Assembly (NCBI GenBank): GCA_009929275.1
Contig: SAAW01000008.1
Span: forward strand, 1 to 42,453
Length of the DNA stretch: 42,453 nt
DNA from: Clostridia bacterium
Lineage (GTDB): Bacteria; Bacillota; Clostridia; Christensenellales; UBA1242
Direction of reading: 5' to 3'
The notes below the pieces were generated by a model. That model ran no database searches. It was given only the letters and a program-made list of their open reading frames with translations, and was not told where the DNA came from. Both the position numbers and the translations under genes were made by a program. Positions 17,275 to 39,561 of the stretch are shown here, one piece after another. Each line of letters starts with the position of its first letter. Positions within the stretch are counted from its first letter, which is position 1.

Positions 17275-19902
17275 TTATGAAAAAAGTTTAATAACTGTGC
17301 TGTTTGCCTCAATTTTGACTGACGTCCTTGAAAGCGCTCCGGAGATTAGGAAACATTGCCCAACGCCTGCCGTGACAATGTTGTCTTGTTCTTCTTTATT
17401 AATCTCGCCTGCGTTTCTATATAAGTCAATCAAATCGGTGATATCATTTGGAGCAAGCGAGAAAATGAATGAGTATTGGCTTGCATTGATGATTGCGGTG
17501 GACTGTCTTTGAATCTCCGCACTACCCACAAAGTCTTTGATATTCTGCGTGATAACAATCTGCATTCCGTTATATTTACGGATACGCTTTGCCATTTGTG
17601 CCATAAATTCAAGAGCAATTGGGTGCTTTGGATTGATGAAAACGTGGGCTTCGTCGACAGCAACAATGATGTGCCTGTTAGCCTTATATTTATCGTTAAA
17701 ATCCTTATTTTTAATGATTTCATTATCTAAATATTTAAACACCAAAAGCATCTGTGCGTTTGCAATCGTTTGGTTCCTGTTTGCAAGCAAAGAACGAAAG
17801 TTGAATGTCACAAAATTTTCCTTTGTGGCGATCGACATTGGCCCATTCCATAGGTTGCTGTTACGCCCGCCAGAAGAAAACTTTGAAATGTAAGTCAGCA
17901 CAGTTTGCAACGTGGCGTGCAAATATACATCTTTTTCTTTTTCCATTTTCTTTCTAACAAGATTATTCACGTCGTCGAAAATTGGATAATCTTCAGGGTT
18001 TAACTTGGTGAGTGGGGTCTTGGCGTCAATTCCCTTCTCTTTATAAACTTCAATAGTTAAAGAATTTAAAAGTTCAAAAGCGTCTGACGGAATTCCCGGC
18101 AAAACAACACGGAAAAATTCCTCCAAAAACTGCAAGTGAGTTGAATATGAGTCGTCATCTCCACCTTCATCAGATTGCAAAGTGGTCATAATATGAAATG
18201 GATTAAAACGCCCTCTAAGCGAAGAACCGACGTCAATGAATTTGCCACGCATATTGTGACAAAGTGGAGTGTATTCGTCTTCTGGGTCGAGAATAAAAAC
18301 TTTGCTGTTGTCGCAGGCAAGGTTTGTCAAGAGCATTTTTGTTGCGAATGATTTTCCTCCACCAGACTTTCCGATGATCATAATGTTGCTGTTTGCTCTC
18401 TCATTGTCTCTCTTAAAAAAATTGACAAACACGGGATATTCATTATAACCAATATATATGCCTCTTTCGTCCAAAAGTGCACCGGAAATAAATGGGAAAA
18501 CTGATGCAAGTGTGGTGGTTGGGATCTCCCTTTTGTGCTGATTTATGGTGTCGAGAGCGGAAATATTTCGGCTGATGAACGAATCGACTTGCCTACCAAA
18601 CATCTCAGTGTATTTAAAGCCATATTGTTTTAACATAGCCCGAACTTCTTTTTTGGCAGATTCTTCACAGACAATGTGGGTGTTCACTTCAAACAATTGC
18701 TCATTGCTCGTTTTGAGCATTTGCAAAAGTTCTTTGAGAGAGTTATATTGCAACTCATTTTCCACCTGTTTACTGCTCTTATAACTATTTGACATTTTTG
18801 TTTCCATCTCAATGATAGATTTATCAATCTTTTTTTCGCCAACCGCCTTTTGAATAGGCTTAAAATTCATAATAATATTTGCCCTGTCCAACAAGAAAAA
18901 TGACGCGCCCCAAGCATTCCCCACTTGCGCAGGATAGTCTGTGAGAGTGAATGAACGATAAGGTTGTTTGTCAATAAAAAACTTCGTTGTTTTAAATCTA
19001 ATATCCTCTGGAATAGACCAATTTGAAAATTGATTTGTTGGTGTGCTTTCAAGGTCTCTCTCGTCGAAATATCTGCCATAGTTTGCCTTCAAAAAAACAG
19101 CAAGTTCCTTGTTTCCTAACCTATGGCAATTCAAAGGAACGACACTGTTTGACAAAGTGCTCACAATGCCATTAACCGTTGTTTCCAAAGTGTCTTTATC
19201 TTTGTCATACACGGCGATGTAGAAAAAATCCTTATAGACTTTTTCTTCCTTATTCATTCCTTCGAGTTGACTCACGCGAGTCTCAAAAACTTGCGCCCTT
19301 GCTTCAATCTCTTCCATAGCCATTTCGTCTTCATATTGAAGTTCCATAAGAGTGTCGTATTTTTTATCTTCGTCTGCAATGTAGTCGTCAAAGACGAGAG
19401 ATTTGCTCACTTTTATTATGCTGGCAGTTTGGTCGTTATTAATTCTCCTAAGGCTGTTTGCAAAAGATTTTATGACTAAATCTTGCCTATCGCCCGACAA
19501 AAGCCCAAATTCAATGGGTTTAATCTCAATAACCATTCCATAATATTCCTTGAAATCAAGAAATTTATCTTTAACTATTCCCTCATATGGAATGATATCC
19601 TTAATTTTAAGTCTTCCCGTTTTTTTGTCCACATCGGACTTGTTATATTTCTTTTTAAAAGCAATGAAGCGAATGGTAAGCCCTAGAGAACTGTATATTC
19701 TCAAATCGTCTTCAATTTTCAAAAAGAGCATTGCAACAAGTGAAACCCACGCTAAAGCAAGATACCAATTGTATGGCAAATTACTTACAATAAGCAATAT
19801 TGCACCTATAAAACCAATCGCTGCCACAATGATGTCTGAAAGAGTTATTCCTTTAAAAAACTCCATTTTAACTCTAATTTTTTTAGGAATATAATTTACC
19901 AT
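17275..19902 (-). CDS. VirB3/PrgI-like domain fused to VirB4/TraE/TraC-like conjugation ATPase
   Basis: Walker A IMIIGKSGGGKSFATK, Walker B HIIVAVDEAHVFIN; N-terminus IPKKIRVKMEFFKGITLSDIIVAAIGFIGAILLI with two TM helices resembles PrgI/VirB3. Confidence 0.9.
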   Translation of the reverse strand: MVNYIPKKIRVKMEFFKGITLSDIIVAAIGFIGAILLIVSNLPYNWYLALAWVSLVAMLFLKIEDDLRIYSSLGLTIRFIAFKKKYNKSDVDKKTGRLKIKDIIPYEGIVKDKFLDFKEYYGMVIEIKPIEFGLLSGDRQDLVIKSFANSLRRINNDQTASIIKVSKSLVFDDYIADEDKKYDTLMELQYEDEMAMEEIEARAQVFETRVSQLEGMNKEEKVYKDFFYIAVYDKDKDTLETTVNGIVSTLSNSVVPLNCHRLGNKELAVFLKANYGRYFDERDLESTPTNQFSNWSIPEDIRFKTTKFFIDKQPYRSFTLTDYPAQVGNAWGASFFLLDRANIIMNFKPIQKAVGEKKIDKSIIEMETKMSNSYKSSKQVENELQYNSLKELLQMLKTSNEQLFEVNTHIVCEESAKKEVRAMLKQYGFKYTEMFGRQVDSFISRNISALDTINQHKREIPTTTLASVFPFISGALLDERGIYIGYNEYPVFVNFFKRDNERANSNIMIIGKSGGGKSFATKMLLTNLACDNSKVFILDPEDEYTPLCHNMRGKFIDVGSSLRGRFNPFHIMTTLQSDEGGDDDSYSTHLQFLEEFFRVVLPGIPSDAFELLNSLTIEVYKEKGIDAKTPLTKLNPEDYPIFDDVNNLVRKKMEKEKDVYLHATLQTVLTYISKFSSGGRNSNLWNGPMSIATKENFVTFNFRSLLANRNQTIANAQMLLVFKYLDNEIIKNKDFNDKYKANRHIIVAVDEAHVFINPKHPIALEFMAQMAKRIRKYNGMQIVITQNIKDFVGSAEIQRQSTAIINASQYSFIFSLAPNDITDLIDLYRNAGEINKEEQDNIVTAGVGQCFLISGALSRTSVKIEANSTVIKLFS

Positions 19903-19965: not shown

Positions 19966-22680
19966 TTAATCATCTTTCTTATCCTCACCCTTGAGGATTT
20001 TCCCAAGAGATTCAAATCCACTATTGATGGCTCTCTTAAGACCTTCCATCTGTTCAAGTTGAATTTGTTCATTAGACTGTTCATTAATGCCTAAATTTTC
20101 ATGTTTTTGTGTTTCAAGAGATTCTTTCAAAAGTTTGTTTGTCTCTCCCAAAGATTCTTTAAAGACATCTTTATTAGCGGCTGCTTGATCTTGTAATTCT
20201 TTATTTGTCTTTGCGGTGGCCTCGTCTTCAGCCTGCTTTCTTGCATTTTTTAACCAATCATTAACTTTATCTATATTTTCGAAATGACTTTTGTCACTAA
20301 CTTTGTTAATGGACGCCTGCATAATCTCTGCTTGTTTTGTTATCCCGTGTTTTGTTTCGAATTTTTCCAATTCTTTTTTGGCAGCAACTTGTTCGCTTAA
20401 AACTCCGTCTTTAGTTGCATTTGCAAGATTTTCGTTAAGTCGTTTCGACTCGGACTCAATTTCCGAACCTCTTTCTCTTGCAACACCTTTTTTCAAAAAT
20501 TCGAGTTGAGATTCTTTTCCAGAGGAATAGTCTGTTTCTTTTTTATCTCTCTTTTTCTTATCATCAGCAATTTCTTCTTTTGATTTGTAAAAACTTGAAC
20601 GCTCGCCATTTTTGTTCATTATTAAATTTATTGCTGCTTGTCCACTTTCATTTGTAAGTCCACCCAAAGATTCAAGAAGTCGATCACGCATTGAGCCAGC
20701 ACTAGCCCCAAAAACATCTTTTAAGAGGAATTTGCCTTGCTTTAAATCGCCCAACTTTCTACCCACAAAACTTGCATCAAATTTCTCTTTTCTATTCTCT
20801 CTTCTTTCCTGTTTTGCAGTCTCTCTCTCTTGTTTTAATCCAGAGACTTTTGCTTCTTCCTCTGCTATCAAGTCATCATTTGCATAACTATCTTCCAAAC
20901 TGCCAGTAGGTCTTCTTTTTATATCTTTAATTTTTTGCTTAGAGGACCAAATTTTATAGTCATCACGTCGATTTTTTGGAACTTTATCAAGTTTTGCTTT
21001 AATGTTTCCGATTCTTTCAGTGCTGATTTTTACCGCTTCATCATCGCCTTTTTCATAAGCTTGACTCAATATTTCTTCTTCTTGCTCTAATTCTTTTTCA
21101 TTTTTGACTTGACCTTGATATCCCGTAAGTCTACTCGCTCCGCGAAGTGCCGCTTTTCCTGTAGCCCCCACACCCTTGCCAATTCCTACGGCTGCTTTCC
21201 CAGTAAGTTTTGCTGCTGTGCCTGTTGCTTTAAAAGCGAGACCACCCAATGCCGTTGCCCCCAGAGCAACTTTACCCGCTGTTCCCATAACTTTTTTCGC
21301 ATTAGCATCGGCTTGTCCCAGCATATCTTCCAAGCCAAGCATAGAAGTGAAGAGGCTGTTTGCTGTTTTCAAAAGATCAAGACCAACAATAATTACTGCA
21401 ATTTGGAACATTATGTCAAAAACACCAAGAACAATCTTGTTCATTACTAGCCCAAAAATAACATTAGTTTTTCCTCCCGTGAAAGGAGATAGACTTCCAA
21501 AAATCCCAATTATAATAAAAAATAAATTATAAGCAAAAACTGGGCCTATCACAGCAAGAAGTCTTTTCAAAAATTCACCACGAAGTTTTTTCTCTGCATT
21601 GCCACTATCAAGTGGTGCCACAGCAGTCATAACAGGAGCAAGAAGGAATAAAATAAGCATTTCAAGGATACGTTTGAATAGCAACAAGCATACAGTAAGC
21701 ATACTCCAGCCAATAATAATGGCAGAACCAAGAGCTAAAATATAGTTAAAAGATGAAAAATCATAAAAATAGTTCACGATATTTATGTTCAATATATTTA
21801 TTCCGTTTGTAAAATCCGGATAATCAATTAAAGAAACATGCCAGTCGACATAAGTTGTATCCATATTTGTATATCTATATGTATAATTATATTCTACTAG
21901 TTTAACAACATTGGTATAAACTTGATCAACACCTTTTCCTGATATTTCACCAGTTAATATTTCACTAAGTTTTTTACCATCACTACCCACTTTTCCAGCA
22001 AAAATATCATCAACCTTTTTTGCAACTGTTTCTTGAGTTGAACAATTTTTGAAAGGATTTCTTTCCTGATAAGCTGATTTTAACCAAGCTCCTCCTCTTA
22101 AATAGTCTGCAAAAGCCTTATCATTTCGTGCTCTGTTTGCTCCAGAAGACCCCACTAAAAAACACTTAAATGCCATCGAATCGTCTGCCCCTTCACCAAA
22201 AACCTTGGAGACAACATTAAGAAGTTGGCTCGTCGCATAAATTCCCACAATGAAAATGACTGGGATCATAATAAAATTGGCAAAAGAAGTGAGTGCTCGA
22301 GTTATTATCGGTGCTTTGGAAGAATATTTTAAAGAAAATTCGGCTTTAATGACTGCTACAATGGTGAAAACAACCAAAAGCACAATGCAAACACCTAAAA
22401 TTGACCAAAAAACAATCTGAACATTAGTATTTTTAAGCACCCCAACTATTAAATCATCGTTTGATCCACCATAAGTTGCTGAAGTATCAAGCGACATTTC
22501 TTCTATTCCAGCAAGCATTCCAAAAAGTTTTTGAACAAAATTAATTATGAATGAGACTCCAATAAAGGCAAAATAGAGAATGTAGCCAAAAAAAATTGCA
22601 ACAAAGATTTCTTTCATATAAGGCATAATTCCATTAAAAAATTCAAACGCACCCAACATAGACAAAAACTGAAAATTCAT
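19966..22680 (-). CDS. VirB6/TrbL-like (CD0411-like) polytopic membrane protein with about 400-aa charged C-terminus
   Basis: Hydrophobic segments across the first half, then KATGTAAKLTGKAAVGIGKGVGATGKAALRGASRLTGYQGQV and a charged coiled-coil tail; adjacent to VirB4. Confidence 0.75.
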   Translation of the reverse strand: MNFQFLSMLGAFEFFNGIMPYMKEIFVAIFFGYILYFAFIGVSFIINFVQKLFGMLAGIEEMSLDTSATYGGSNDDLIVGVLKNTNVQIVFWSILGVCIVLLVVFTIVAVIKAEFSLKYSSKAPIITRALTSFANFIMIPVIFIVGIYATSQLLNVVSKVFGEGADDSMAFKCFLVGSSGANRARNDKAFADYLRGGAWLKSAYQERNPFKNCSTQETVAKKVDDIFAGKVGSDGKKLSEILTGEISGKGVDQVYTNVVKLVEYNYTYRYTNMDTTYVDWHVSLIDYPDFTNGINILNINIVNYFYDFSSFNYILALGSAIIIGWSMLTVCLLLFKRILEMLILFLLAPVMTAVAPLDSGNAEKKLRGEFLKRLLAVIGPVFAYNLFFIIIGIFGSLSPFTGGKTNVIFGLVMNKIVLGVFDIMFQIAVIIVGLDLLKTANSLFTSMLGLEDMLGQADANAKKVMGTAGKVALGATALGGLAFKATGTAAKLTGKAAVGIGKGVGATGKAALRGASRLTGYQGQVKNEKELEQEEEILSQAYEKGDDEAVKISTERIGNIKAKLDKVPKNRRDDYKIWSSKQKIKDIKRRPTGSLEDSYANDDLIAEEEAKVSGLKQERETAKQERRENRKEKFDASFVGRKLGDLKQGKFLLKDVFGASAGSMRDRLLESLGGLTNESGQAAINLIMNKNGERSSFYKSKEEIADDKKKRDKKETDYSSGKESQLEFLKKGVARERGSEIESESKRLNENLANATKDGVLSEQVAAKKELEKFETKHGITKQAEIMQASINKVSDKSHFENIDKVNDWLKNARKQAEDEATAKTNKELQDQAAANKDVFKESLGETNKLLKESLETQKHENLGINEQSNEQIQLEQMEGLKRAINSGFESLGKILKGEDKKDD

Positions 22681-22842: not shown

Positions 22843-24828
22843 CTAAATCATAATGTCTTGGATTGTTATCGTTGCAAGGCTTGAAGCCGACGGTGGCACA
22901 AGAATAAGTTCCACAAAGTCAAAAGCATCTCTTGAAAGCGAATAATACTCTGGGTTACTATCATAAATCAAAACAAAATTATCTTTATTAAACTGAACTG
23001 TGCTTATAAAACCATTATTTAATGGATTATCTTCATAAGCATGATAATTTCGAAGTTCTACTTTAGTGTTTTTAGCCTTAAAAATAGCCTTTACATCAAC
23101 ATAAATAACGCCAGATTCAAGATTTTTTATAAATTCATCATTTTCATCATTTATATCAAAATTAATTTTTATTAAACTACTGTTTTCTTTTATATTCCCA
23201 TCAGCATCAACAGATGCAATAGCACTTAAATTTACATCGCCCCATTTATGATAGTATAAGTAAAAAGAGTAAGTTTTTAACAAAGCCATATTTACTTCAT
23301 CGGCTTTAAAGAAAATAGTGAAGTCTGGGAAACTTGTGTTGGTGCTAACAAATAGACTTGTTTGATTATTACTGTTTGAAAAAAACAATGCACTCAACGA
23401 GCAAACAATTTCATCTCCAAAGCCATCTTTTTCAAGAAAATAGCCTTTTGTGGAAGGATATATTGATGAACTATTAGGGTCGTTATTAGCCCCAATATAT
23501 TGGGTAATAATATTTGTCACCAAGGCTACATAGTTCTTAAAAAATGGTGAACTTAAGTCTAGTTTTTCAACGGCGGTTGAGGTGGAAGGGGTGAGTGTGA
23601 AAAATGTTGTTCCAATTATTTCGCTACAAATGGAATATCGAATATAATTTACATCGCCCTGTTGATAAACTAGATCCTCACCTATAGTAGAAGTGACATA
23701 AATAAAAAATTCCATTGAGGAGTCCACAGCTTGTTGGTGAGTTGCTGAACCGTTAATATAATTTTGAATAACATTCATTGCAGTTGTATATTTTGCTGAA
23801 AGAGTTTGTCCTGCTGTTCCATAAGATAATAAACTGCCAGAACCAACCAATATGTTTTTAATGATGAGCATTGCCAAATATTCATCATACTTTTGAATGA
23901 AAACTTCTTTTCTTTTTTGAATATCAGTTTTATTTGTCAACTTTTCAATTAAAGTTTTTGATGCTAATTCAGCATTAGTCAAATGGCAATTCCAAGTTGA
24001 TGATGTAAGCGGAATATATTGCCAAAAAGTATTCATCATTGCTGAAGCATTATCAAATTTAATATTATTTTCTATAGCATTAACATGCGAGTATTGATAA
24101 AACCTTTTTATAAAAGAAATGGGTTCACTAAGAGAATCTCCGCCAACTGTTTGTCCTACAAAAACATAGGCAGTGAAAGTTTCAAAATCAGTAGATTGAT
24201 TTGTTAAATGAAATTTACATACATTGTTAGAACCAATTGGAATTGGATTTTTTTGTAGACCTTCATAATACAAAGTGCTGTTTGTTTTCAAATTAGTAAC
24301 TTTTATATTATTAGCACCATAAATTGAACCAGTTAAATTTCGATTACGAATATAAAACTGCCCGTTTTCATAACCAACAATCATTCCGTCATTTTCGCCA
24401 CTTCCAAGTTCTACATCATAAAGCACTCTTGTAGAACAAATGATTATGTAACTACCACCTACAGTTTTTATATAAAAATTTTTAAAGTTGGACAAGTCAT
24501 CTGCAATAATGATGCTTGAAGTTTCTTCGTTTGCGCTGTCATAACTGCCCGAATAGCCAAATAAAGATTCATAATTAATTGAACCCCAGTTATTACTCCC
24601 ACTTTTTGTTCCATTCGCCATTCCATATTCATCATATAGGTCACTCAAAATCGGGGCTGAGGTGTTCTTCACAATATAATCATAACCTCTTTGAGTGTAG
24701 ACCATTCCTGAATAAATATTTCTTGTGCTACAACCTGTCAAAGCAAAAAGCGACGAGAAAATAAAAATCGTCGTTAGGATTAAACTGTTTAATTTGCTAA
24801 ATTTTTTCCACATTTTTTGCTTTTTCAC
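22843..24828 (-). CDS. Large secreted lipoprotein, T4SS-locus associated
   Basis: Signal LILTTIFIFSSLFALTGCSTRN with lipobox LTGC; 661 aa, no known domain recognised. Confidence 0.75.
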   Translation of the reverse strand: MKKQKMWKKFSKLNSLILTTIFIFSSLFALTGCSTRNIYSGMVYTQRGYDYIVKNTSAPILSDLYDEYGMANGTKSGSNNWGSINYESLFGYSGSYDSANEETSSIIIADDLSNFKNFYIKTVGGSYIIICSTRVLYDVELGSGENDGMIVGYENGQFYIRNRNLTGSIYGANNIKVTNLKTNSTLYYEGLQKNPIPIGSNNVCKFHLTNQSTDFETFTAYVFVGQTVGGDSLSEPISFIKRFYQYSHVNAIENNIKFDNASAMMNTFWQYIPLTSSTWNCHLTNAELASKTLIEKLTNKTDIQKRKEVFIQKYDEYLAMLIIKNILVGSGSLLSYGTAGQTLSAKYTTAMNVIQNYINGSATHQQAVDSSMEFFIYVTSTIGEDLVYQQGDVNYIRYSICSEIIGTTFFTLTPSTSTAVEKLDLSSPFFKNYVALVTNIITQYIGANNDPNSSSIYPSTKGYFLEKDGFGDEIVCSLSALFFSNSNNQTSLFVSTNTSFPDFTIFFKADEVNMALLKTYSFYLYYHKWGDVNLSAIASVDADGNIKENSSLIKINFDINDENDEFIKNLESGVIYVDVKAIFKAKNTKVELRNYHAYEDNPLNNGFISTVQFNKDNFVLIYDSNPEYYSLSRDAFDFVELILVPPSASSLATITIQDIMI

Positions 24829-24890: not shown

Positions 24891-25214
24891 TTAAAAACTT
24901 ATAACTTCTTCAAAAGTTTTTTGAATGTTAGGTAAATTTGTGATTATCCACCCTAAAATCCAAACAAGTCCAATGATTATAAAAATAGTCACAACCATTC
25001 CCATCATTTTCTTCTTATAATCTGCTATTTTAGAAGAGTCCGTCTCCTTCACCATTGCTGCCGCCAAAACAATTGCGACAATCGCTCCCAAAACACAAAG
25101 AGCAATTGTGAAAGGAATTAAATTCTCGTTTAAGAAAGTTGCTATTACATCAATAGCAGTGTTACCTTCCGTTACGGGAAAAATATCTGCACCTAAAAAG
25201 TATAGAAAATTCAT
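24891..25214 (-). CDS. VirB2/TrbC-like small two-TM protein (pilin-like) 2
   Basis: 107 aa, two hydrophobic segments separated by a short charged loop (KETDSSKIADYKKKMMG). Confidence 0.65.
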   Translation of the reverse strand: MNFLYFLGADIFPVTEGNTAIDVIATFLNENLIPFTIALCVLGAIVAIVLAAAMVKETDSSKIADYKKKMMGMVVTIFIIIGLVWILGWIITNLPNIQKTFEEVISF

Positions 25215-25234: not shown

Positions 25235-25264
25235 TTATTATACCAAATTTTAGCATAAAACAAC
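25235..25264 (-). promoter_or_regulatory. Putative sigma-A-type promoter for pilin-like 2 and downstream genes
   Basis: Minus strand TTGTTG - 18 nt - TATAAT, about 20 nt upstream of ATG with GGAG RBS. Confidence 0.45.
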
Positions 25265-25349
25265 AAAAATCTCCAATTAATTTATTAAAAATAAAATATT
25301 TTTAACAATTGCAAAAGAAATTTTGAAATTTATTTTTATTTTTTAATCA

Positions 25350-25379
25350 AAAACAAAAAGCCCGATAAAAATCGGGCTT
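25350..25379 (-). terminator. Intrinsic terminator between the two pilin-like genes
   Basis: Perfect 9-bp stem AAGCCCGAT-TTTT-ATCGGGCTT followed on the minus strand by TTTGTTTTTGATT. Confidence 0.75.
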
Positions 25380-25413
25380 AATAATATTAAAATAAAATTT
25401 CTAAAGCTACAAA

Positions 25414-25767
25414 TTAGGTTGTAGGGATTGTGCTGCCATTGAAAATTGTTGAAGCGGAAGCACTGAACCATGTCAATATCCAAATGAGAATAATGACAGA
25501 AACCATGGCAATGACAACATTGATAAGTTTGCCTTTTGCTTCTTTTTGTTTGCCAGCTTCTTCTGCTTTAGCAAGTTGAACGCCCAACCAAATAATCCAA
25601 ACTGCACCAATTATAGAGACTATAATTGTCACAGGAAGTATCATATTGTCCAAAAATATTGCAATGTTTCTTACCCACTCAATACCTGTCCAATTACTAT
25701 TTTCTTCTATAACAGTTTTGAATGGTCCGTTTGATGTTACTGCTCCCAAAAGATTTAAGAAATTCAT
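25414..25767 (-). CDS. VirB2/TrbC-like small two-TM protein (pilin-like) 1
   Basis: 117 aa, two hydrophobic helices with short charged loop KAEEAGKQKEAKGK; strong RBS AGGAGG. Confidence 0.65.
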   Translation of the reverse strand: MNFLNLLGAVTSNGPFKTVIEENSNWTGIEWVRNIAIFLDNMILPVTIIVSIIGAVWIIWLGVQLAKAEEAGKQKEAKGKLINVVIAMVSVIILIWILTWFSASASTIFNGSTIPTT

Positions 25768-25946: not shown

Positions 25947-27950
25947 ATGAAGAGATTTTTATACATTCCGGTTATATTTCTTTTATGTCTTGCAGCTGGA
26001 ATTGGCGCAGAATATTATATCACAAATGGTGGCACTGGAGCATTTGAAATTGCCGAACTTTCAAGCGGAATGTTTGTCCCACTTTTTGCAATCGTCGGCA
26101 CAGGAAGTTATATCATATTTTGTTTAAACCACTCTCTCGACAAAAAAGAAAAACCAAAACTTGGGGCTAAAACAAAAGAAGGAGTGGATTTATCTCAATA
26201 TTTCGATTCGCATTGGACAACTGAAAAAGATTTGCAAACTCAAAAACAATTTATGTATTGCACTTGGGAAAATTTGAAAAACAGCCCCGACGGCATTGTT
26301 ATTCGCAGTCAAGTGAAAAATAACAAACTTCACATTAATATGTATAAGGCAATTCACACGATGATTATCGGAACAACCGGCGTTGGAAAAACTCAAAAAT
26401 ACATCGAACCTAGCATACAAATCCTTTCTTCCACTCGCACAAAACCTAGCATGGTCATCACCGACCCAAAGTCAGAACTCTATGGACACCACGCAAACAA
26501 ATTGAGACAAGAGGGGTATGATGTCAAAGCTTTTAATCTTCGTAGGCCATATGAATCGGCAAGATGGAACCCAATGGAAAATTCCTTCTCACTCTATCAA
26601 AACGCCTTCACCCTTTATGACAGAGTTATCACTCATGTGGGCATCAATCCCGCAGATTTAGGGCTTCGTATAATTGCAGAAGAATATGAAAATGAATGGT
26701 ATGAATATAACGGTGTTGCCTATCCAAACAAAGAAACTCTCGACACTGACCTTATTTCCAAAAAAGCGGAATTAATCGACCACGCAGAGAATGAACTGCG
26801 TGAAATTGCAGCAAATCTCTGCCCTGTTGACCCAAACAGTAGAGAACAACAATCTTGGGACAGAGGTGCACAAGAATTTATATATGGAACAATGCTTGCA
26901 ATGCTTGAAGATAGTATGAACCCCGAACTTGGAATGACAAAAGATAAGTTTAATTTCTATAACCTTGCCAAAATTTGCAATTTCAAAGACCCCGACCCTG
27001 AAAATCCATATAGAACTCTCAGGCAATATTTCACAGGAAGGGAAAAATTTAGCAAAGTGCTCTCTCTTGTGTCCACAGCGGTGAACAATGCTCCCACCAC
27101 GACAAAAAGTTATATGGGAATTGTCGCAGCACATATGAGTGTTTTCAACGACAGCGGAATGTGTTATGCAACAAGTTCAAACGAGATTGATTTTAGCAAC
27201 TTTTCTGAAAAACCAACTGCTCTTTTCATCATTTTCCCAGACGAAAAAGTCAATCGTCACGGCATTGTCACTCTTATGATTTCCCAAACTTACAAAAGGC
27301 TTGTTGAACTTGCTGAAAAATATCCCGGAGGAGAACTTCCAAGGACTTGCTATTTCCTCCTAGACGAATTTGGCAACCTGCCAAAGATTGAAAAAATCGA
27401 CTCAATTGTCACTGTTTCAAGAAGTAGAAAGATTTATTTTTCACTCATCATTCAATCATATAGTCAACTATATTCAAAATATGGCGCTGACGTCGCAGAA
27501 ACTTTAAAAGGCAACTGCCCAATTAAGATTTTTATCGGCACTGACGATGCAAAAACTTGTGAGGAATTTAGCAAAACTTGCGGTGACATCACTTTGCAGA
27601 CAACTTCAACCTCTGAAAGCAAGCAAAAAGACAAGGACGGCAAGGAGACTCCAAACAAATCTGTCAGCACTTCCGTCACTTCTCGTCCACTCATCTATCC
27701 CGACGAACTCCGCCACCTCAGCAAAGCAGACGGCACAGGTGAAATGGTTGTGTTTATCTTAAACGAATTCCCTATTCGCACACTTTCAAATCCTTATTGG
27801 CAAACTGTTCAATTTGACCATTCTCGTGCACCTGACATATATGTTGTATCAAAAGCATTAAACGAAGAAAAAGTGGCTTATAACATCATTGAAAGAAATG
27901 AAAAAGTTTTGCACCAAAGACCTTTTCCAAACAGACCAATTAATTTTTAA
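25947..27950 (+). CDS. VirD4/TraG-like type IV coupling protein
   Basis: Walker A IIGTTGVGKTQKYIEPSI, TDPKSELYGHHA, Walker B CYFLLDEFGNLPKI, SLIIQSYSQLYSKYG; N-terminal TM helices. Confidence 0.9.
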   Translation: MKRFLYIPVIFLLCLAAGIGAEYYITNGGTGAFEIAELSSGMFVPLFAIVGTGSYIIFCLNHSLDKKEKPKLGAKTKEGVDLSQYFDSHWTTEKDLQTQKQFMYCTWENLKNSPDGIVIRSQVKNNKLHINMYKAIHTMIIGTTGVGKTQKYIEPSIQILSSTRTKPSMVITDPKSELYGHHANKLRQEGYDVKAFNLRRPYESARWNPMENSFSLYQNAFTLYDRVITHVGINPADLGLRIIAEEYENEWYEYNGVAYPNKETLDTDLISKKAELIDHAENELREIAANLCPVDPNSREQQSWDRGAQEFIYGTMLAMLEDSMNPELGMTKDKFNFYNLAKICNFKDPDPENPYRTLRQYFTGREKFSKVLSLVSTAVNNAPTTTKSYMGIVAAHMSVFNDSGMCYATSSNEIDFSNFSEKPTALFIIFPDEKVNRHGIVTLMISQTYKRLVELAEKYPGGELPRTCYFLLDEFGNLPKIEKIDSIVTVSRSRKIYFSLIIQSYSQLYSKYGADVAETLKGNCPIKIFIGTDDAKTCEEFSKTCGDITLQTTSTSESKQKDKDGKETPNKSVSTSVTSRPLIYPDELRHLSKADGTGEMVVFILNEFPIRTLSNPYWQTVQFDHSRAPDIYVVSKALNEEKVAYNIIERNEKVLHQRPFPNRPINF

Positions 27951-28179: not shown

Positions 28180-28259
28180 ACCAAATTAATTTTTATAAAA
28201 TTAATTTTTTGCTTTGTAAATTTTAATTCTTTTAAGATAAAAATAAAGAGGTGTCTTCA

Positions 28260-31200
28260 ATGAGAAATCATAAATTCAAATCCATCATAACTTCGAGTAT
28301 TTTGTTTTTATTATCCTTTTGTTGTTTTTATTTTGTCGCTCCTAATGCAAGCGAAGTTATCTCTGCAAACGCTTTTTCAAACAGTGTTACAAACACAGGA
28401 ATAACCGAAGACTCAAAGCAATATTCCTACACAAATTCTTCGACAGGAAACATTCCTTTTTCTCTTTTTACCTCTGCCCCAAGTGCCACAAATAATGAAT
28501 ATATTATCACCGACTACCTTCCCACTTTCACGGCGACAACTTCCACTAACAACACCTATTATTACTCAATGAACGACGACACCGTTCCATACATAGTCCT
28601 CTCTTCCAGTTCGCCCGACGACCTCCTCTATAAGACTTTGTTTTTTAGATTTAACGATGCAAATGGGGCAACCACTTCCACAACAGCGCAGATAAATTCG
28701 ATTGCTGTGCAAGGAACAGTTCGCACTGCAAGTTCTGACGATGAGATATCACTTTATTGCCCAACAGACCAGACAACTTCCACAAACACTCGATATTCTT
28801 TCGCTGTGAACCTATTATCACTCGTTACAAATGACCAAGCAAATCCAGACGCCGAATGTCCTTTCGTTTTGGGCGAAACAACTTTAAACAAACTTGGAGG
28901 AAATGGGGCTGAAAATGATGTTTCATTCCGCACAGGACTTTATAGTTTTATTATTAGTTACACCTTCACAAGAAATGGCGCAGTTTCAAATTCTTGTGTT
29001 TTTGAACTTTCATTTTATATTATTGACTACGACGCATATATTGACAATAACACAAACCCACTTATCTTCTCTAACACCGACACCTATCAATATAGAGACG
29101 AGGCAACAAACACAACTTATGACACCGACTACGAACTCTACAACTATAACTATGACGACGAGCCTGTGATTGAATATGACGCAAGCAAATTTGGGCTTGA
29201 TTTTTCTTTCACTTCTGGCAGTAATATATACAATTTCACTTATGCTTCTTTCACCTATAACGTCCCCTCGGGATACACTGGAAAAGTGACACTAGATTGC
29301 ACTATTAACAACTTGCTATATCAATATTCTTTCTATACAAAACAAGTTGGCAATGTCACATATTCTGCCTATTTTGACTTCGCAGATTTTCAAAAAAATA
29401 TGATTGTTAAAAATAGCACTGCATTTAAAACAAACTCTTTTCAAGGGGTGTATGCTTTTTCGCTTAACATTCTCATTCCAACTTCCTCGTCTGAAAATTT
29501 CATCACAATCCCCTCTTTTATTCTCGACGACACAGTGGATGAAACATTAAACTGCAAAAAACTTGCCATTTTTGGCTATGAATTAAAATATACTGACTAC
29601 ACGACATCTGAAAGACTTGCTCTTGTAAAATATGATGACGCGGGAAATCTTATCACCAAATCTTCAGTCGTCGCCAAAAACGACCATTCAGCGAACTATT
29701 ATGTCTCCGTTCCAGAAAGCATCGCCATAACAAACCAAAAGAATTTGCGTTTTGACAATTTTGGCAATTTGACTTCTTCCTACACAGCAAAATATCTGCT
29801 TTTAAATTACAATCAACTTTCAAATGACGACATTTTAAACACCGAAGAAAACTATTTTGGGCTAATCAAATCTTCCACGCCAGAAACCCTTTCTACAAAC
29901 CTTGCGACGCTTGACACTCTCATCAATGCAAGTGATGTCACCTACACACAAGGTTCGCCAATCACCGTCGACGGCATTTACATTATGAAACTTGTTTATA
30001 GTATTTCCATAGACATAGATTTCTCAAATGGCAATTTGTCTTTTCAGGGTTCAAAAAGTGTTATGGGCGAACAATACATCGTCTTTGAAGTGAATAACAA
30101 TATTCAAAAACTTAACATTCAGGCAATTAACACAAGCACTCAATATCTTTATGATTTTAACACCTACACAAATCAATCTGTGAGAATAGGCATTAAAGAT
30201 ATGCCAAACGCGTTTTTTCTGCCAACTGTTGTGAGCTACACTCGTTCGGCAAATTTTAGTAGCACTTCTTCAAATTCAGGTGTTCTCTCTCTCAAAGCAA
30301 ACACCACCTATCTCGTTGACGGAACAAGTTATAGATACTATGTGACAAACAGTTCAAATAATTTCACTTTTAGTCAAGACGGACTATACACCGTGACCAT
30401 TCGAATTGCCACCACAAGCACCACATCTTCCGAAACATACACTTTCTATATCGACAGTGACACAAACAAAATCTCGGGGACAAGTGGTATCACAAACGCA
30501 CAAAAAATCACCCTGAACGACGCTAGCATAACCTCCGCAGTCATCAATGACGGAAAATATATCAAAACGACAGATTATGTTGCAAAAGAAACATCAAGCG
30601 ACCTCTACATAACCGCCGAACCATTCTCTTTGAGTTGGAAACCAAGCGACAGTGGTGCGAGAGAATATTGCTATGTGTCATATATGGAGCAAACAGAGAC
30701 TTCAAACGATTTGTCTTTGTTTAAAGAAAACACTTCGCAATATTGGCTAACAAACAGTTTTGAATTTAGTTCCATTTTAAACAATGTTGAGAGTGGCTAT
30801 GTTAACAGCTACACTTTAAACGTTGGAAGTGAACTTTCTGCAAAAAGTTATTTCAGAAAAGATGGCATCTATTTCTTTTTCATCTACGACCAAGCGGGAA
30901 ACAATTTTTATCTGACTGTGCTTGTGGACAGTTCAAATTCTTCCATTCTTCAAGGCAAATGGGCAAGCACTTCGGAAAATTCTTCGTGGATAAACACTTA
31001 TGACAAGACGAACAACGAGAGCAACTATGTGAACAGCGACACAGTGCTTTATTTTGGCACCCACAAAGCACTTCTCCTTCCCAATCTTTCCGCTGGCACA
31101 GCCGTCACCGTGACCAACCCAAGTTACACTGCTTGCTATGATCTCTCGACAGGAATTTTGGCAACAAAAACAAACTATAATGTGGATTTTTATCAAATTT

Positions 31201-34200
31201 TGAGTGGAATAACTTCATATGTCTGTACAAATTCAACGAGCGACCTTTTGGACTTCGGCGGTGCAAATGCGAATGATATAAACTACTATTTAATCTTATC
31301 AAATACTTCTGTGACTGAATCAACCACATCAAGCACTTTCACCACTCCGTCAACAATCTATCGTTCCGTCATATATAATGTCACGAGCCTAACTGTTCCC
31401 TTTAAAGGCGAAAACAACTATTTCTTCACCGTGACAAACAAAACTGGAGTTGCCACACAAAGACGAATTAATATGAATTTTGACGTTATTCAAGGCACTT
31501 TTTATGCTTATAATTCAATCGGGGAACAATATGTCATCACACAAGGTGCAGGCACAAATCTAAATGTTTTAAAATTTTCATACACAAAAAACAATTCCTC
31601 TGCGGCTTCCTACTATAATGTCGCAAGTTTATATTATGAATATTATAATTTTGCTCTAACCGAAGATGACCCAAACTATTCTTCATCTTCCTATCCATTC
31701 TCTTCATCTGTCACCTATCAAGACAATCTATTTGCCACGCCAGATGAAGGCGGGGTTATATTTAGTGTGGATTCCATCAATGTCACCTATGATTCGGGCT
31801 TGGGACTTAGTGGTGTGACGAAACCTGGAAAATATGTCATCACTCGTGTTTATCAAGGTGGCACTCACAAAAGGGTGGACAACGGCGATGGCACTTACTC
31901 TTTTATCCTTGAAAGTGGTGGGGATTACTACACAAACGATGGTGGTGAAACTTTCATCTATCTTTTCGGTGCAGATTCAAAAGTTCGAAGATACACTGTT
32001 TATGTCGACCACAATGGCATAATAACTGAAGCAACTTCAAATAGAGATGCAGTGGGAGACAACATTTCCATTATTCTTGGCACAGATAACAGCGTTTCAA
32101 ATCAATGGACTTTTAAAGAATTTTATAAAACTTCCCTTGCTGGCAATTCACTCACGACAAACAAAGTGCCAGTTCAAATCAATGTTCCTTATTCAAAATA
32201 TTTTTTAAACACTTCTTCGTCATATGTTTTTTCAAATTTGAATTTTGCAAAACTTAGTGTTAAAATTTATTATAGTTCTGGCACGGCAAACATAACCTAT
32301 GTTTCAAATGTAAACACATATAATGTCTCGACAGGAATGCTAACTTGCTCGGCTCTTGTGAGTTCTAAAAACCCTTCTGGCAACCTCCTATTCTCAAATG
32401 AAGGCAGATATAACGTCGTCATAACCGATAAGACAGAGACAACCCCAACAACCTATTCCTTTGTGTTCTATATCACCTATTCTTCGCCTGAGATTTCTAT
32501 ATATACTCACAGTTTTTCATCTTCAACTTTCAGCAACACCCTCCTCACAAACGAAGATAGTTCAAACAATTTTGCCACAAATATAAAGGCAGTGAACGAC
32601 AGCCCTTCTTTGGAAGATAACAAAATTTATCTCAAATGGAATGACCCAAGCACTCCATACCTTGCTCAAATAGACAAAATTACTGTGAGTGTTCAAAACA
32701 GCGATAGTACGACTTCGTCATATTCCATAATACTTTCCGAACTTAACAAAAACACAATTATTTCAAGTATAAACGGAGAAGTCAATCTCTCGCTTGGAGA
32801 TTCCACTAACCTAATCACTAGCGGGCAATTTGTGCTTTCTTTTCATTTGGCTTACTACAACCCAACCTCTCCATATGAGACTTTTGACAGCAAAAATTAT
32901 TATAGATATTCCTATCAAATGGCTCTTTCCATCGCAAATGAAGTGAAATACACAATCGTTGTTTCCTACATTTCTATCTTAGATAATTCTGAGAGTTATG
33001 ACAGGAACGATGACACAAGTTTTGCCGACTCCACCTACACCGTCACTATTGACAGAACAAAACCAAATGTAAACATAAATCGACTTATAAATTCTGAGTC
33101 GCTTTTAATGCACTATTTTACAAACACAAGCGAATTTAAAGAAGAGAACTATGACTATGAAGCAAATGGGACTTCGTCTGACCCAACTTCACTCACCTAT
33201 GCTTTTGGGATTAACAGTTCTTTCGCGCTGACATACTCTTCAAGTGAGACTTTAAACTATTTCTACATTCGCTCCTATGATAAATATAACGGCGATTATT
33301 CAAGCATCACACCTGATATGATTGACACAATCTACCCCTCCTCGCACGCATATTATGAAAATCAATTATATTTCAGCGGATATCCAAGATTTTCTGAGAT
33401 AAGACTTATAAGCGACACCATAAATATTGGCACAGAAACATACTATAAAATATACTATAATTTGTCCACTTCCCTCTATTCTCTAATTAAGTCAACTCTT
33501 GGCATCGAAAATCCAACTGGATTTTATGAAGTGATTGAAAAAGACTCTGCAGGAAACTATCGCTCTTTCTCTGTGTATTTTTCAAGTTATTCAAACACAT
33601 ATGAAATCATAAATGTTGACGGAATTCACGAAAATGGATATGCCACAATGTCGGGAAATGCAATAACCGCAAAAGAATATTTCACTTTAACTTCCCTTTC
33701 CAGCAGACTTGGATTTGGATATGTCACGCTTCGAAACGAGACTTTGGGCACAAACTTTTCATCTGTCATCGAATTAAGTCCTGTTTCCACTTCCATTTCA
33801 AGTCAAATGCTTACAAGAATTAATGCGTTTTTAACCTGTGAAATCAATTCGCGTTTTAGCTTCACTCTTTCGCGCTATAACTCAACATTCCCTCTTTCGA
33901 CTGTTTATATAAACGTCATCACAAATGATAGCACGGCTTATCTTTCGTCGCCAACAGTGCAAGAGAGCAGTTCGTCCACGGGAACGACTTATAACCTCGT
34001 CCTCACAACCAGCACTGCCACAACTTTCCTATATCTTGAAAGATTTTCACTTTATGTCTATTCAAACAACGCTTGGCAAGCCACTTCGCATATATACACT
34101 TCAAATATCCCAAGCAACATCACTGGTCTTTCCAGTGGCATATACAAAGCAGTGTATAAAGACAACTACAACGCAAATACCTATTTCTTCATTCTCTATA

Positions 34201-36719
34201 TTGGCGAGTTTTATATTAACAATTTCTCAAAAGAAGTCGTATTTTCTTTGCAAAATTACATCTACGACAGTGAAAATAAGATGTATTATAGCGGTGATGA
34301 CGTTCAAATTACATATGAAGCAAACATATATCAAGTGAGGGTCAATGGTGTTTTGTATAGTGGAACAAATCTTGAAACTTTGTCTTCAAAATATTCTTCT
34401 TACAATTGTAAAACTTTCACTCTTTCTTCCGATTATTCCTACAATAATGTTGATGCAGAATACTCTGTCGGTGGCGTGACAACTTATGAGATTGTCTATT
34501 ATGACATCACTGACGGCTCAATTCAAAAGACTTTGAACATAACTATTTTTGACTATCTCCCTGAGATTATCCTCACAAATGAGAACGACGGAAGTTCTTC
34601 CATCACTTCAACCTTGCAAGAAAGTGAATCTCAGATTACAAACGCGATTGTAAACATTGACTATGGCACGATTGGTGGCTGTGCGTATGCAGGTTTGAAT
34701 GATTCAAGCACAAACAATGTAACTGTGGCTAAACTCTACACAAGAAATGATGAGGGCGAATATGCTTCCTATAAGATTATCTCCGCGGGCGAAGTTGTGT
34801 CGGAAGAGGGCTACTATCGCCTTGATATTTCAAACAGCAAACTGGCTAATATGAGGAGTATATATTTTGTCATTCAATTTGGCGACTTCCCTCTCTACAC
34901 TGTCTATGCAAACGAAGCGGAACTTTCGCCTTCATCTCAGGAAATTCTCAATCTTTCCTCCACGACCACGGCAAATAGTTCAAAATTTAACAGTTCGTCA
35001 GCATCACAGACGGTTATCCAAACAATATATCAAGCATTAACTTCGCTTAATACAGCAGGATATCTCAACGACATTGTCGACAGGACAACAAGTTTGCCAA
35101 AAACTGAATATGACATTCTTATCAGTAACTTAGGCTTCACATCTAGCGGAGTTTTTAGTGCTTCTAACATCGGTATTGCGAACATTCTTAATGTGGAGCA
35201 TTTCTATTCAATTTATTCCCCAAGCATAGTTTATAATAGTAATATAAAACTTAATATAATAGAATTTGTGTTCACAAATGATATTCTTACCAACTATTTT
35301 TTAAACGACGAGGGCATAAACACAACCCCATCAAATGTTGGAAGAGATTATTGGACAACAATCTATCTCGTCTATAATTTGACAGGGCCAATTAGGATTG
35401 AACTTTTTGCTTTCACAAAAGTGCCAACAAGCACTTCGCTTATAAGCGGAAATATCTACTACAATTCCACTGAAGTGATCAACCTAACAAGTTCTTCCAT
35501 AACTCTTGAAAAAGTTTTGACAAACAGCGAGATAACTAACAGCACAACTCTGATCAGCTGGAATATGTTGCCATCTGCGGAGACTGCAAAGTGGTTCAAA
35601 CAAGGCAATTTTGTGTATCTTCTTGAACAATATAGCCTTAACGACACCTATTATTCAATCAATTTCGCTGTCAACACAGCAACAAGCGTTAATTCCTCCA
35701 CAATCTCAGGCTCTGGAACGCACAAAATTATGTTTAAAGATATTGCAGGAAACACTCATCAGTTCACCACAAGTTCTTTCGTCAGCGAGAAAAATGTCTT
35801 TAAAATTCATTTGCTCGACCAAGTGATATACTATTTAACACAAGATGAAGAAGATCGCGACCCAATTCAATATGCCATTTTTAACTCCCCTGTTGAAATT
35901 ATTCTCGACCAATATTATTTAAGTCTGCTTTCAAACATTAAAATTCGGGTGACTCTCAACGGAACTTCCACGACAAATTTTACCACAAACGGAAATGTTT
36001 ATACTTTCTCAAATGCGGGCAAATATATCGTCAAATTTGACGGGAAATATAATGGCAAAGATTTGAACACTGCCACCTATAATTTCTCCATAATTAATGC
36101 AAATGCGTCAAGGCTTTCCTTTGAATATCCAAGCATAAAGGGTTATAAAATTACAAAAGTGATTAAAGACAGCAGAAATATCACAAGCAGTATCCTTGCA
36201 AGCGATGGCTCGCTTTTCGTGACGGCCAGTGATAGTCTCAGCGGAAGTGGACATTACACTGTCACTTTAAAATATGGACAGAACGCAAATGATGTCATAG
36301 AATTTTCTTTCCTCATAAGCGAATTTGTCCCAACAATTTCTTGCAACATAAATTATGGGGAAACAACGACTTCCAACATTATTCTTTCTTATAATGGAAA
36401 TTATATATACAGCCAAATCGGGCAATGTAGCATCAATATTTTGGTCTATAATTCCGACAGCAACACTTTCTACACTTATCAAACCATTTCAATTTCGGAC
36501 GCTTCCAGCACTGGGAATTCAACAATCACACTCTCCAATTCAAACTCCTATTTTGTTCAAGTTAAGACAGAGAATGGCAATGTCATCAGCAGTTTTAGGG
36601 TGAACAAAACAGACCCTCTAAACTCTTTTGCAATCATTGCCATAATTATTGCTTCAATTGCTGGCATCGTGCTTCTCATCGTCATCATTAAACTTAGGAC
36701 AAAGATGAAAGTAAGATAA
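28260..36719 (+). CDS. Giant (about 2,819 aa) secreted repeat protein with C-terminal membrane anchor
   Basis: Signal sequence MRNHKFKSIITSSILFLLSFCCFYFVAPNASE; recurring G-x-Y-x-V/I...Y-x-F-x-I Ig-like strand motifs; C-terminal SFAIIAIIIASIAGIVLLIVIIKLRTKMKVR. ATG at 28260 with AAGAGGTG upstream is preferred to the GTG at 28251. Confidence 0.85.
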   Translation: MRNHKFKSIITSSILFLLSFCCFYFVAPNASEVISANAFSNSVTNTGITEDSKQYSYTNSSTGNIPFSLFTSAPSATNNEYIITDYLPTFTATTSTNNTYYYSMNDDTVPYIVLSSSSPDDLLYKTLFFRFNDANGATTSTTAQINSIAVQGTVRTASSDDEISLYCPTDQTTSTNTRYSFAVNLLSLVTNDQANPDAECPFVLGETTLNKLGGNGAENDVSFRTGLYSFIISYTFTRNGAVSNSCVFELSFYIIDYDAYIDNNTNPLIFSNTDTYQYRDEATNTTYDTDYELYNYNYDDEPVIEYDASKFGLDFSFTSGSNIYNFTYASFTYNVPSGYTGKVTLDCTINNLLYQYSFYTKQVGNVTYSAYFDFADFQKNMIVKNSTAFKTNSFQGVYAFSLNILIPTSSSENFITIPSFILDDTVDETLNCKKLAIFGYELKYTDYTTSERLALVKYDDAGNLITKSSVVAKNDHSANYYVSVPESIAITNQKNLRFDNFGNLTSSYTAKYLLLNYNQLSNDDILNTEENYFGLIKSSTPETLSTNLATLDTLINASDVTYTQGSPITVDGIYIMKLVYSISIDIDFSNGNLSFQGSKSVMGEQYIVFEVNNNIQKLNIQAINTSTQYLYDFNTYTNQSVRIGIKDMPNAFFLPTVVSYTRSANFSSTSSNSGVLSLKANTTYLVDGTSYRYYVTNSSNNFTFSQDGLYTVTIRIATTSTTSSETYTFYIDSDTNKISGTSGITNAQKITLNDASITSAVINDGKYIKTTDYVAKETSSDLYITAEPFSLSWKPSDSGAREYCYVSYMEQTETSNDLSLFKENTSQYWLTNSFEFSSILNNVESGYVNSYTLNVGSELSAKSYFRKDGIYFFFIYDQAGNNFYLTVLVDSSNSSILQGKWASTSENSSWINTYDKTNNESNYVNSDTVLYFGTHKALLLPNLSAGTAVTVTNPSYTACYDLSTGILATKTNYNVDFYQILSGITSYVCTNSTSDLLDFGGANANDINYYLILSNTSVTESTTSSTFTTPSTIYRSVIYNVTSLTVPFKGENNYFFTVTNKTGVATQRRINMNFDVIQGTFYAYNSIGEQYVITQGAGTNLNVLKFSYTKNNSSAASYYNVASLYYEYYNFALTEDDPNYSSSSYPFSSSVTYQDNLFATPDEGGVIFSVDSINVTYDSGLGLSGVTKPGKYVITRVYQGGTHKRVDNGDGTYSFILESGGDYYTNDGGETFIYLFGADSKVRRYTVYVDHNGIITEATSNRDAVGDNISIILGTDNSVSNQWTFKEFYKTSLAGNSLTTNKVPVQINVPYSKYFLNTSSSYVFSNLNFAKLSVKIYYSSGTANITYVSNVNTYNVSTGMLTCSALVSSKNPSGNLLFSNEGRYNVVITDKTETTPTTYSFVFYITYSSPEISIYTHSFSSSTFSNTLLTNEDSSNNFATNIKAVNDSPSLEDNKIYLKWNDPSTPYLAQIDKITVSVQNSDSTTSSYSIILSELNKNTIISSINGEVNLSLGDSTNLITSGQFVLSFHLAYYNPTSPYETFDSKNYYRYSYQMALSIANEVKYTIVVSYISILDNSESYDRNDDTSFADSTYTVTIDRTKPNVNINRLINSESLLMHYFTNTSEFKEENYDYEANGTSSDPTSLTYAFGINSSFALTYSSSETLNYFYIRSYDKYNGDYSSITPDMIDTIYPSSHAYYENQLYFSGYPRFSEIRLISDTINIGTETYYKIYYNLSTSLYSLIKSTLGIENPTGFYEVIEKDSAGNYRSFSVYFSSYSNTYEIINVDGIHENGYATMSGNAITAKEYFTLTSLSSRLGFGYVTLRNETLGTNFSSVIELSPVSTSISSQMLTRINAFLTCEINSRFSFTLSRYNSTFPLSTVYINVITNDSTAYLSSPTVQESSSSTGTTYNLVLTTSTATTFLYLERFSLYVYSNNAWQATSHIYTSNIPSNITGLSSGIYKAVYKDNYNANTYFFILYIGEFYINNFSKEVVFSLQNYIYDSENKMYYSGDDVQITYEANIYQVRVNGVLYSGTNLETLSSKYSSYNCKTFTLSSDYSYNNVDAEYSVGGVTTYEIVYYDITDGSIQKTLNITIFDYLPEIILTNENDGSSSITSTLQESESQITNAIVNIDYGTIGGCAYAGLNDSSTNNVTVAKLYTRNDEGEYASYKIISAGEVVSEEGYYRLDISNSKLANMRSIYFVIQFGDFPLYTVYANEAELSPSSQEILNLSSTTTANSSKFNSSSASQTVIQTIYQALTSLNTAGYLNDIVDRTTSLPKTEYDILISNLGFTSSGVFSASNIGIANILNVEHFYSIYSPSIVYNSNIKLNIIEFVFTNDILTNYFLNDEGINTTPSNVGRDYWTTIYLVYNLTGPIRIELFAFTKVPTSTSLISGNIYYNSTEVINLTSSSITLEKVLTNSEITNSTTLISWNMLPSAETAKWFKQGNFVYLLEQYSLNDTYYSINFAVNTATSVNSSTISGSGTHKIMFKDIAGNTHQFTTSSFVSEKNVFKIHLLDQVIYYLTQDEEDRDPIQYAIFNSPVEIILDQYYLSLLSNIKIRVTLNGTSTTNFTTNGNVYTFSNAGKYIVKFDGKYNGKDLNTATYNFSIINANASRLSFEYPSIKGYKITKVIKDSRNITSSILASDGSLFVTASDSLSGSGHYTVTLKYGQNANDVIEFSFLISEFVPTISCNINYGETTTSNIILSYNGNYIYSQIGQCSINILVYNSDSNTFYTYQTISISDASSTGNSTITLSNSNSYFVQVKTENGNVISSFRVNKTDPLNSFAIIAIIIASIAGIVLLIVIIKLRTKMKVR

Positions 36720-39547: not shown

Positions 39548-39561
39548 TCTTTTTCTCTCCT

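Follow-up and report, generated by a model that had tools for sequence, protein, structure and literature searches.

A giant, partly Ig-like surface protein as the putative contact protein of a chromosomal type IV secretion system in genome-reduced Clostridia

Conjugation in Gram-positive bacteria relies on adhesins rather than pili (PMC12857230), and surface contact proteins linked to a type IV secretion system (T4SS) are already known as a kind. The ScARP proteins of Spiroplasma have a signal peptide, a C-terminal transmembrane segment and a basic tail (PMC2386487), and the repeat domain of ScARP3d binds insect cells (PMC3485318). In the integrative and conjugative element (ICE) ICEA of Mycoplasma agalactiae, the surface lipoprotein CDS14 is essential for transfer and has been proposed to start donor-recipient contact (PMC6030558). 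RSP of IncHI plasmids is a large immunoglobulin (Ig)-like protein that is encoded in a T4SS region, is needed for conjugation and depends on the T4SS gene trhC for its export (PMC6764697). The T4SS of Patescibacteria/Saccharibacteria is core, chromosomal and mostly relaxase-less, and is found in monoderm cells with VirB2-like pilins and small, biosynthetically poor genomes; a system of this type is essential in Southlakia epibionticum (PMC12102498, PMC12857230), and no adhesin has been detected with it (PMC12102498). According to a 2025 review, it has long been asked whether the T4SSs of Gram-positive bacteria have turned into translocators dedicated to non-conjugative tasks (PMC12857230). Here we analyse a stretch of 42,453 nucleotides (nt), referred to as the window, from a Clostridia bacterium (GTDB lineage Bacteria; Bacillota; Clostridia; Christensenellales; UBA1242; assembly GCA_009929275.1, contig SAAW01000008.1, positions 1 to 42,453), which encodes a giant surface protein beside a T4SS. 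In the searches made, no description was found of a T4SS in reduced gut Clostridia or of this giant; nor did they turn up its lineage, size, Ig-like build or conserved tail, or its universal pairing, in reduced Clostridia, with a chromosomal T4SS that has no relaxase.

We propose that a T4SS fixed in the chromosome and lacking a relaxase has the giant as its dedicated contact protein at the cell surface, which is the probable reading of the comparisons below. The dedication of the giant to the T4SS is well supported by these comparisons, and its architecture and analogy with known systems suggest that it may act as an adhesin on a partner cell. The features of the gene and its product are as follows.

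28260..36719, plus strand: giant surface protein of 2,819 amino acids (aa), by translation; family homologues have 2,303-3,930 aa
28247..28253, plus strand: Shine-Dalgarno-like AGAGGTG, 6 nt 5' of the ATG
28260..28367, plus strand: predicted signal peptide region, about aa 1-36 (MRNHKFKSIITSSILFLLSFCCFYF..., with a basic n-region and a hydrophobic h-region)
28368..36626, plus strand: ectodomain, about aa 37-2789, of degenerate beta/Ig-like units; the motifs GxYxV and DxAGN are conserved
36627..36689, plus strand: predicted single C-terminal membrane helix, aa 2790-2810 (hydropathy and AlphaFold2 model)
36690..36716, plus strand: short basic tail KLRTKMKVR at the C-terminus (sequence and homologue alignment)

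The open reading frame (ORF) translates without an internal stop into an intact protein, and the ATG at 28260 is preferred over the GTG at 28251 as the start because of the AGAGGTG at 28247-28253. A first-pass annotation of the window had described an ORF of about 2,819 aa with a signal sequence, an ectodomain rich in Ser, Thr, Asn and Tyr, a C-terminal transmembrane segment and a basic tail without LPXTG, and all of this was confirmed from the sequence. Together these four residues account for 43%. By hydropathy, the protein has a signal-type segment at its N-terminus and a single membrane helix at its C-terminal end; the AlphaFold2 model places the terminal helix at aa 2789-2815. The signal peptide region is common to all full-length homologues by sequence and hydropathy comparison. 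At the extreme end of the 60 homologues aligned, the tail is conserved as LRxxMK[VI][RK] and R2813 is invariant, and further invariant residues are scattered along the whole length. No LPXTG sorting signal was found at the C-terminus (...DPLNSF..., ...DPLNSFAIIAIIIASIAGIVLLIVIIKLRTKMKVR), and the protein has no polymer adhesin or glucan-binding domain and no Pfam family at E<=1. Scans with Pfam, NCBIfam and PADLOC gave no useful family, and a PDB sequence search with both profiles of the giant gave no significant match. Since the gene adjoins that of the coupling protein, the giant could also be a cargo of the T4SS, exported like RSP and acting at a distance or on the partner; RSP provides the precedent of a large Ig-like protein with trhC-dependent export that is required for conjugation (PMC6764697). 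We consider this very improbable, as the signal peptide and the C-terminal helix found in all full-length homologues examined point instead to Sec export and membrane retention.

To place the giant in its family, we compared its distribution with that of the T4SS. A profile of the last 130 residues detected the C-terminal module in 138 of 147 family genomes and in 42/42 sampled genera, counted at E<=1 with a few of the matches weak, and VirB4 was likewise found in 138/147 genomes and 42/42 genera. The two were present together in 130 of the 147 genomes, one alone in 16 and neither in 1, and the absences, which overlap in a single genome, look like assembly gaps of incomplete metagenome-assembled genomes. 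Statistics of co-loss within the family were uninformative, since neither gene was ever clearly lost. Full-length homologues of the giant are present in the genus, and the giants of the family mostly measure 2,300-3,900 aa. The window carries the giant on the same strand as the coupling protein VirD4 and just downstream of it, as the first-pass annotation had stated; VirD4 ends at 27950, 309 nt upstream. Among the 54 loci with enough upstream sequence to be testable, the giant directly follows VirD4 in 41, is divergent beside VirD4 in two (L075, L150) and lies 2.75 kb away in one (L094). In the remaining 10 of the 54 genomes the giant is not near VirD4, and all ten still encode VirB4.

The same pairing was observed outside the family, where about 183 genomes of the order were covered. 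The C-terminal module was found at E<=1e-3 in 18 of these genomes, 9 of which carry it <=10 kb from a VirB4 of the Mbov_0397 type, and the family and outside-family modules align at E=7.9e-15. Together with the conservation across 138/147 family genomes, this indicates that homologues do not commonly occur apart from the T4SS. In related conjugative elements of the order the genes run relaxase-VirD4-surface protein-pilin-VirB6-VirB4, and 12 of the 15 outside-family T4SS loci inspected encode a large protein with one C-terminal membrane helix that adjoins VirD4 and/or the pilin. The surface proteins of these related systems have 530-2,500 aa. Homologues in ICEs lie immediately before pilin-VirB6-VirB4; the giant of the window comes after VirD4, with the genes from pilin to VirB4 running divergently. 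An annotated adhesin occupies the position ahead of pilin-VirB6-VirB4 in pSci1 and pSciBLHMB-1, and on pSci1 it is labelled 'adhesion related protein, transmembrane' (ScARP family). Because the C-terminal module marks the matching protein in the related conjugative elements and corresponds in position to the Spiroplasma ScARP slot, this lineage of T4SS may use it generally as a contact subunit. The first-pass annotation had inferred an adhesin dedicated to the secretion machine, and the dedication to the T4SS is well supported by the family-wide co-conservation, the adjacency to VirD4 in 41/54 loci and the same slot in related ICEs.

We also considered that the giant might be a general surface protein of the surface layer (S-layer) type that lies near VirD4 by accident. 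Its Ser/Thr/Asn/Tyr-rich composition would suit such a protein, and the S-layer protein EA1 is among the weaker Foldseek matches of the structural models described below. The giant has the same neighbour across the family and the same slot in unrelated ICE insertions, which leaves this explanation scarcely probable at all. The chance-neighbour reading was rejected, as the outside-family matches concentrate at VirB4/T4SS loci, suggesting that the giant follows the T4SS. Two of the relaxase-bearing conjugative elements (L177 in genome G312 and L182 in G300) are near-identical even though they come from two different families of the order; their VirB4 branches measure 0.045, from which a recent transfer is read, and they carry a short surface protein of 533-557 aa.

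The first-pass annotation had further suggested a degenerate tandem Ig-like stalk from seven repeated motifs, all of which were found in the giant. GxYx[VIFA]-type motifs occur 14 times, compared to a mean of 4.4 and a maximum of 11 in 500 shuffles, and GxY-type motifs hold many of the most conserved residues. A profile-profile self-comparison of 14 motif-anchored units, built from the 60 homologues, gave 26/88 unit pairs at E<1e-3 compared to 0/88 after column shuffling, a signal that is overstated because the anchors were chosen by motif and part of it is thereby selected. An unselected comparison of the two halves of the giant gave E=2.3e-6, so that an internal repeat signal is present by both routes, and the best unit-unit alignment covers 75 columns. 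The conserved motifs are unevenly spaced, 77-372 residues apart, which points to a mixed beta chain and not to a clean tandem array, so that 'tandem' applies only loosely. AlphaFold2 with the 60 homologues predicted aa 1760-2819 (1,060 residues) as a series of chained beta units with the membrane helix at the end, at a predicted local distance difference test (pLDDT) of 86.6. A Foldseek search of the PDB with this model returned 224 matches at E<=1e-3, mainly to Ig, FN3 and macroglobulin (MG)-type chains. The top match was the neck of GhpA, the grappling hook protein of Aureispira (5.7e-16); overall template modelling scores were low, as is expected with flexible chains. The model of aa 190-1260 is beta-rich (pLDDT 82) and matched known folds weakly. 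No Pfam domain is found in the window protein; its outside-family homologues hit BiPBP_C, an Ig-like model, at up to 6.5e-10, and show a weak match to Big_3. Collectively, the predicted models support the Ig-like part of the earlier claim for the C-terminal 40% of the giant and only partly for its N-terminal half; the repeats stand, in an arrangement that is tandem only in a loose sense.

Within the genus, median identity is 41% for the giant ectodomain, 62% for VirD4 and 75% for VirB4, and fast evolution of the ectodomain is expected if it is a recognition surface. Alternatively, the giant could belong to the structure of the transfer apparatus, as a scaffold or sheath spanning the wall in place of the VirB1/VirB8/VirB10-type parts that seem to be missing from this minimal system, and not be an adhesin. 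Pfam and NCBIfam scans recognised no hydrolase or VirB8-like gene among the T4SS genes of the window, mycoplasma ICEs are similarly without VirB1 and VirB8 (PMC12857230), and a scaffold would fit a protein that is universal in the family with invariant residues along its full length. Set against this, related systems manage with 530-2,500 aa and some genera of the family with 560-855 aa, the ectodomain ranks with the less conserved parts, and a reach far past the wall would exceed what a scaffold needs. We therefore regard the scaffold as decidedly unlikely. Several observations nevertheless weigh against a dedicated contact protein. The 560-855-aa versions, which share the same C-terminus and are the only ones in their genera, indicate that giant length is not essential; the giant is unlinked from VirD4 in about a fifth of the testable loci; its conserved overall length and scattered invariant residues would equally suit a structural role; and its N-terminal half is without a confident fold match. 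The bearers are uncultured, and, as set out below, relaxases in 9/36 genomes make it conceivable that DNA may pass through the family T4SS, at least in trans.

The T4SS genes of the window are arranged as follows.

14659..17163, minus strand: fast-evolving protein of 834 aa after VirB4, probable T4SS accessory (position conserved)
17275..19902, minus strand: VirB4 ATPase of the Mbov_0397 (mycoplasma/Spiroplasma ICE) type (NF045975, 580.5 bits over the full length, cut-off 590)
19966..22680, minus strand: VirB6-like membrane protein, 904 aa (NF045848, MMCAP2_0566 family, 96.7 bits, cut-off 90)
22843..24828, minus strand: fast-evolving lipoprotein of 661 aa with an LTGC lipobox (sequence)
24891..25214, minus strand: second pilin-like protein, 107 aa (NF045849 1e-5, below cut-off)
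25414..25767, minus strand: pilin-like VirB2 protein, 117 aa (PF18895 6.7e-4 and NF045849, Mbov_0395 pilin-like, 9.4e-8, both below cut-off)
25947..27950, plus strand: VirD4/TraG coupling ATPase, CD1115 family (PF02534 1.2e-45; NF045973 285 bits, cut-off 250)

All T4SS genes other than VirD4 (14659-25767) are thus on the minus strand, divergent from VirD4 and the giant. By their family models, VirB4 and VirB6 appear to group with the ICE lineage of mycoplasma and Spiroplasma: the VirB6-like MMCAP2_0566/Mbov_0396 protein, above its cut-off, adjoins the VirB4 gene, and the NF045975 cut-off, just above the score of the window VirB4, is passed by other VirB4s of the family, for example that of G024 at 603.8 bits. 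The best named plasmid matches are from Spiroplasma, at about 26-30% identity. The two pilin-like proteins of the window score 31.6 and 25.1 bits with NF045849 against a cut-off of 40, which the L164 homologue exceeds (47.5). Pilin-like genes vary in number, with two in the window (24891-25767) and up to four in relatives (L067, L076, L098). The 661-aa lipoprotein matched no Pfam or PADLOC family and has hardly any detectable similarity even inside the genus, which makes it a second fast-evolving surface candidate. No Pfam family matched the 834-aa protein; relatives have a large ORF of 485-1,626 aa at its position after VirB4, and the window copy contains acidic repeats (EPAEQPEPAEQPE). In several genera, represented by G082, G092, G100, G104 and others, VirB4 gives a two-piece match around residue 580 with about 70-90 nt extra between the pieces, a lineage-specific insertion.

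The T4SS appears to be fixed in the chromosome, core to a genome-reduced family and without a relaxase beside it, which goes beyond the first-pass annotation. It is flanked by MnmA, RecX and MazF on one side and by a Rho-N-like gene, YpeB, SleB, SpoIIR and SipL on the other, and the flanking genes are the same across the genus wherever contigs reach. The Rho-N-like gene, kept beside the giant (36828-37979, minus strand), encodes a fast-evolving protein of 383 aa with a Rho N-terminal and an RNA-binding domain and a median identity of 37% in the genus. No integrase or transposase was found among the window ORFs scanned, and Pfam scans of the window ORFs found no relaxase. The VirB4 proteins of the family form one clade in a quick tree (Shimodaira-Hasegawa-like approximate likelihood ratio test, 99), suggesting a single acquisition of the T4SS followed by vertical inheritance. 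Their nearest relatives are in G337 (L173) and G272 (L176), outside the family, which have giants of about 2,500 aa and no PF03432 relaxase match; MnmA adjoins the T4SS in G337, as in the window, and these loci suggest an older fixed locus.

The locus might instead be a conjugative element, domesticated or in decay, through which DNA is still moved; the giant would then be a mating adhesin of the ordinary kind, and mobilisable elements would provide the relaxase in trans. The order does contain homologous ICEs with a relaxase beside VirD4; in these related elements, a 430-aa protein before VirD4 has the invariant relaxase H-x-H and weak PF03432 matches. A profile of this cognate relaxase gave matches in 9/36 family genomes, including G006 and G019, which have a single VirD4 and a single VirB4, and mycoplasma ICE machines are able to transfer whole stretches of chromosome (PMC12857230). 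The profile found no match in the other 27/36 genomes, nor in the genome of the window (G000), and PF03432 was above cut-off in 2/59 family genomes. The family matches to the cognate profile nearly all fall on contigs separate from the core T4SS or accompany accessory VirD4 copies; the exception is G016, with a relaxase fragment at the edge of the giant's contig. Retention of the T4SS in 42/42 genera as one clade suggests selection for a cell function. We consider a decaying element unlikely, though far from negligible. A separate MOBP relaxase is encoded on another contig of the window's genome (G000:C50:623-1021), possibly as part of a mobilisable element able to borrow the chromosomal T4SS.

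Genomes of the family measure about 0.8-1.4 Mb, with few exceptions, and the source of one member record is goat cecum. PurM was detected in 0/36 family genomes compared to 18/24 others in the order, and AroA above cut-off in 0/36 compared to 17/24; the weak AroA matches in the family are probably MurA. From these two markers, the family would depend on others for at least those products. Despite such strong reduction, the sporulation-associated genes YpeB, SleB, SpoIIR and SipL (38171-42298, minus strand) are kept in a 1.2-Mb genome without PurM and AroA. As no relaxase lies beside the locus and PurM and AroA are missing, delivery of protein or exchange of small molecules or nucleotides seems somewhat likelier than dedicated conjugation.

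For a dedicated contact protein, we propose the following arrangement. The giant would be exported by Sec and remain anchored in the membrane in type I orientation, its conserved module of Ig pair, helix and tail lying beside the base of the T4SS and the tail possibly contacting VirD4 or VirB6. It could reach far past the cell wall, perhaps by ~100 nm if it has ~25-30 units of ~4 nm, and its fast-evolving outer part would bind the partner cell, upon which the T4SS with its pilin-like subunits would transfer cargo. The family T4SS bears on the non-conjugative question raised above, being kept in 42/42 genera with no relaxase beside it in bacteria whose usual purine and aromatic routes are missing as judged by PurM and AroA, and the conserved membrane module of the giant offers a handle for pull-down, imaging and a search for the partner cell.

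Among known systems, the layout of the giant resembles that of the ScARP/P89/SkARP adhesins of S. citri and S. kunkelii plasmids (pSci1-5, pSKU146), which likewise have a signal peptide, an ectodomain of repeats, a membrane helix near the C-terminus and a short basic tail. ScARP genes lie directly before pilin-VirB6-VirB4 of the Mbov_0395/0396/0397 lineage, the slot that homologues of the giant occupy in Clostridia ICEs. In contrast to the giant, with 2,800 aa of Ig-like units and a chromosomal gene, ScARPs have 690-830 aa of sarpin repeats or propeller-like units and are plasmid-borne in wall-less associates of insects and plants. Sequence homology between the two was rejected (hhalign E 0.006, probability 6%; no sarpin repeats in the giant). 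PrgB, the aggregation substance of pCF10, and other LPXTG conjugation adhesins are likewise T4SS-encoded surface proteins, the PrgB type making cell-cell contact (PMC12857230), but PrgB has an LPXTG sortase anchor and a polymer adhesin domain and the giant has neither. RSP differs in being Gram-negative and T4SS-exported, and the available part of its report mentions no C-terminal membrane anchor (PMC6764697). CDS14 is a surface protein of a machine of the same VirB4 lineage. It differs from the giant in being a lipoprotein, and its nearer analogue may be the 661-aa lipoprotein at 22843-24828.

The Patescibacteria provide a hypothetical parallel at the level of the whole system. They belong to a different phylum, a giant putative adhesin is universal in the family described here, and this Clostridia family is not known to be epibiotic. 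Like the T4SS of Patescibacteria, that of the family is core and chromosomal, has no relaxase beside it and occurs in small, biosynthetically poor genomes, and the variable number of pilin-like genes in the window, L067, L076 and L098 recalls the VirB2 arrays of Patescibacteria. Tentatively, and with the balance somewhat against it, we propose that this genome-reduced family of gut Clostridia could live by cell contact by means of a domesticated T4SS that no longer serves conjugation and bears a giant docking arm of Ig-like build, which would make it a second, independent Patescibacteria-like T4SS for epibiosis or exchange, in Firmicutes and with a visible adhesin.
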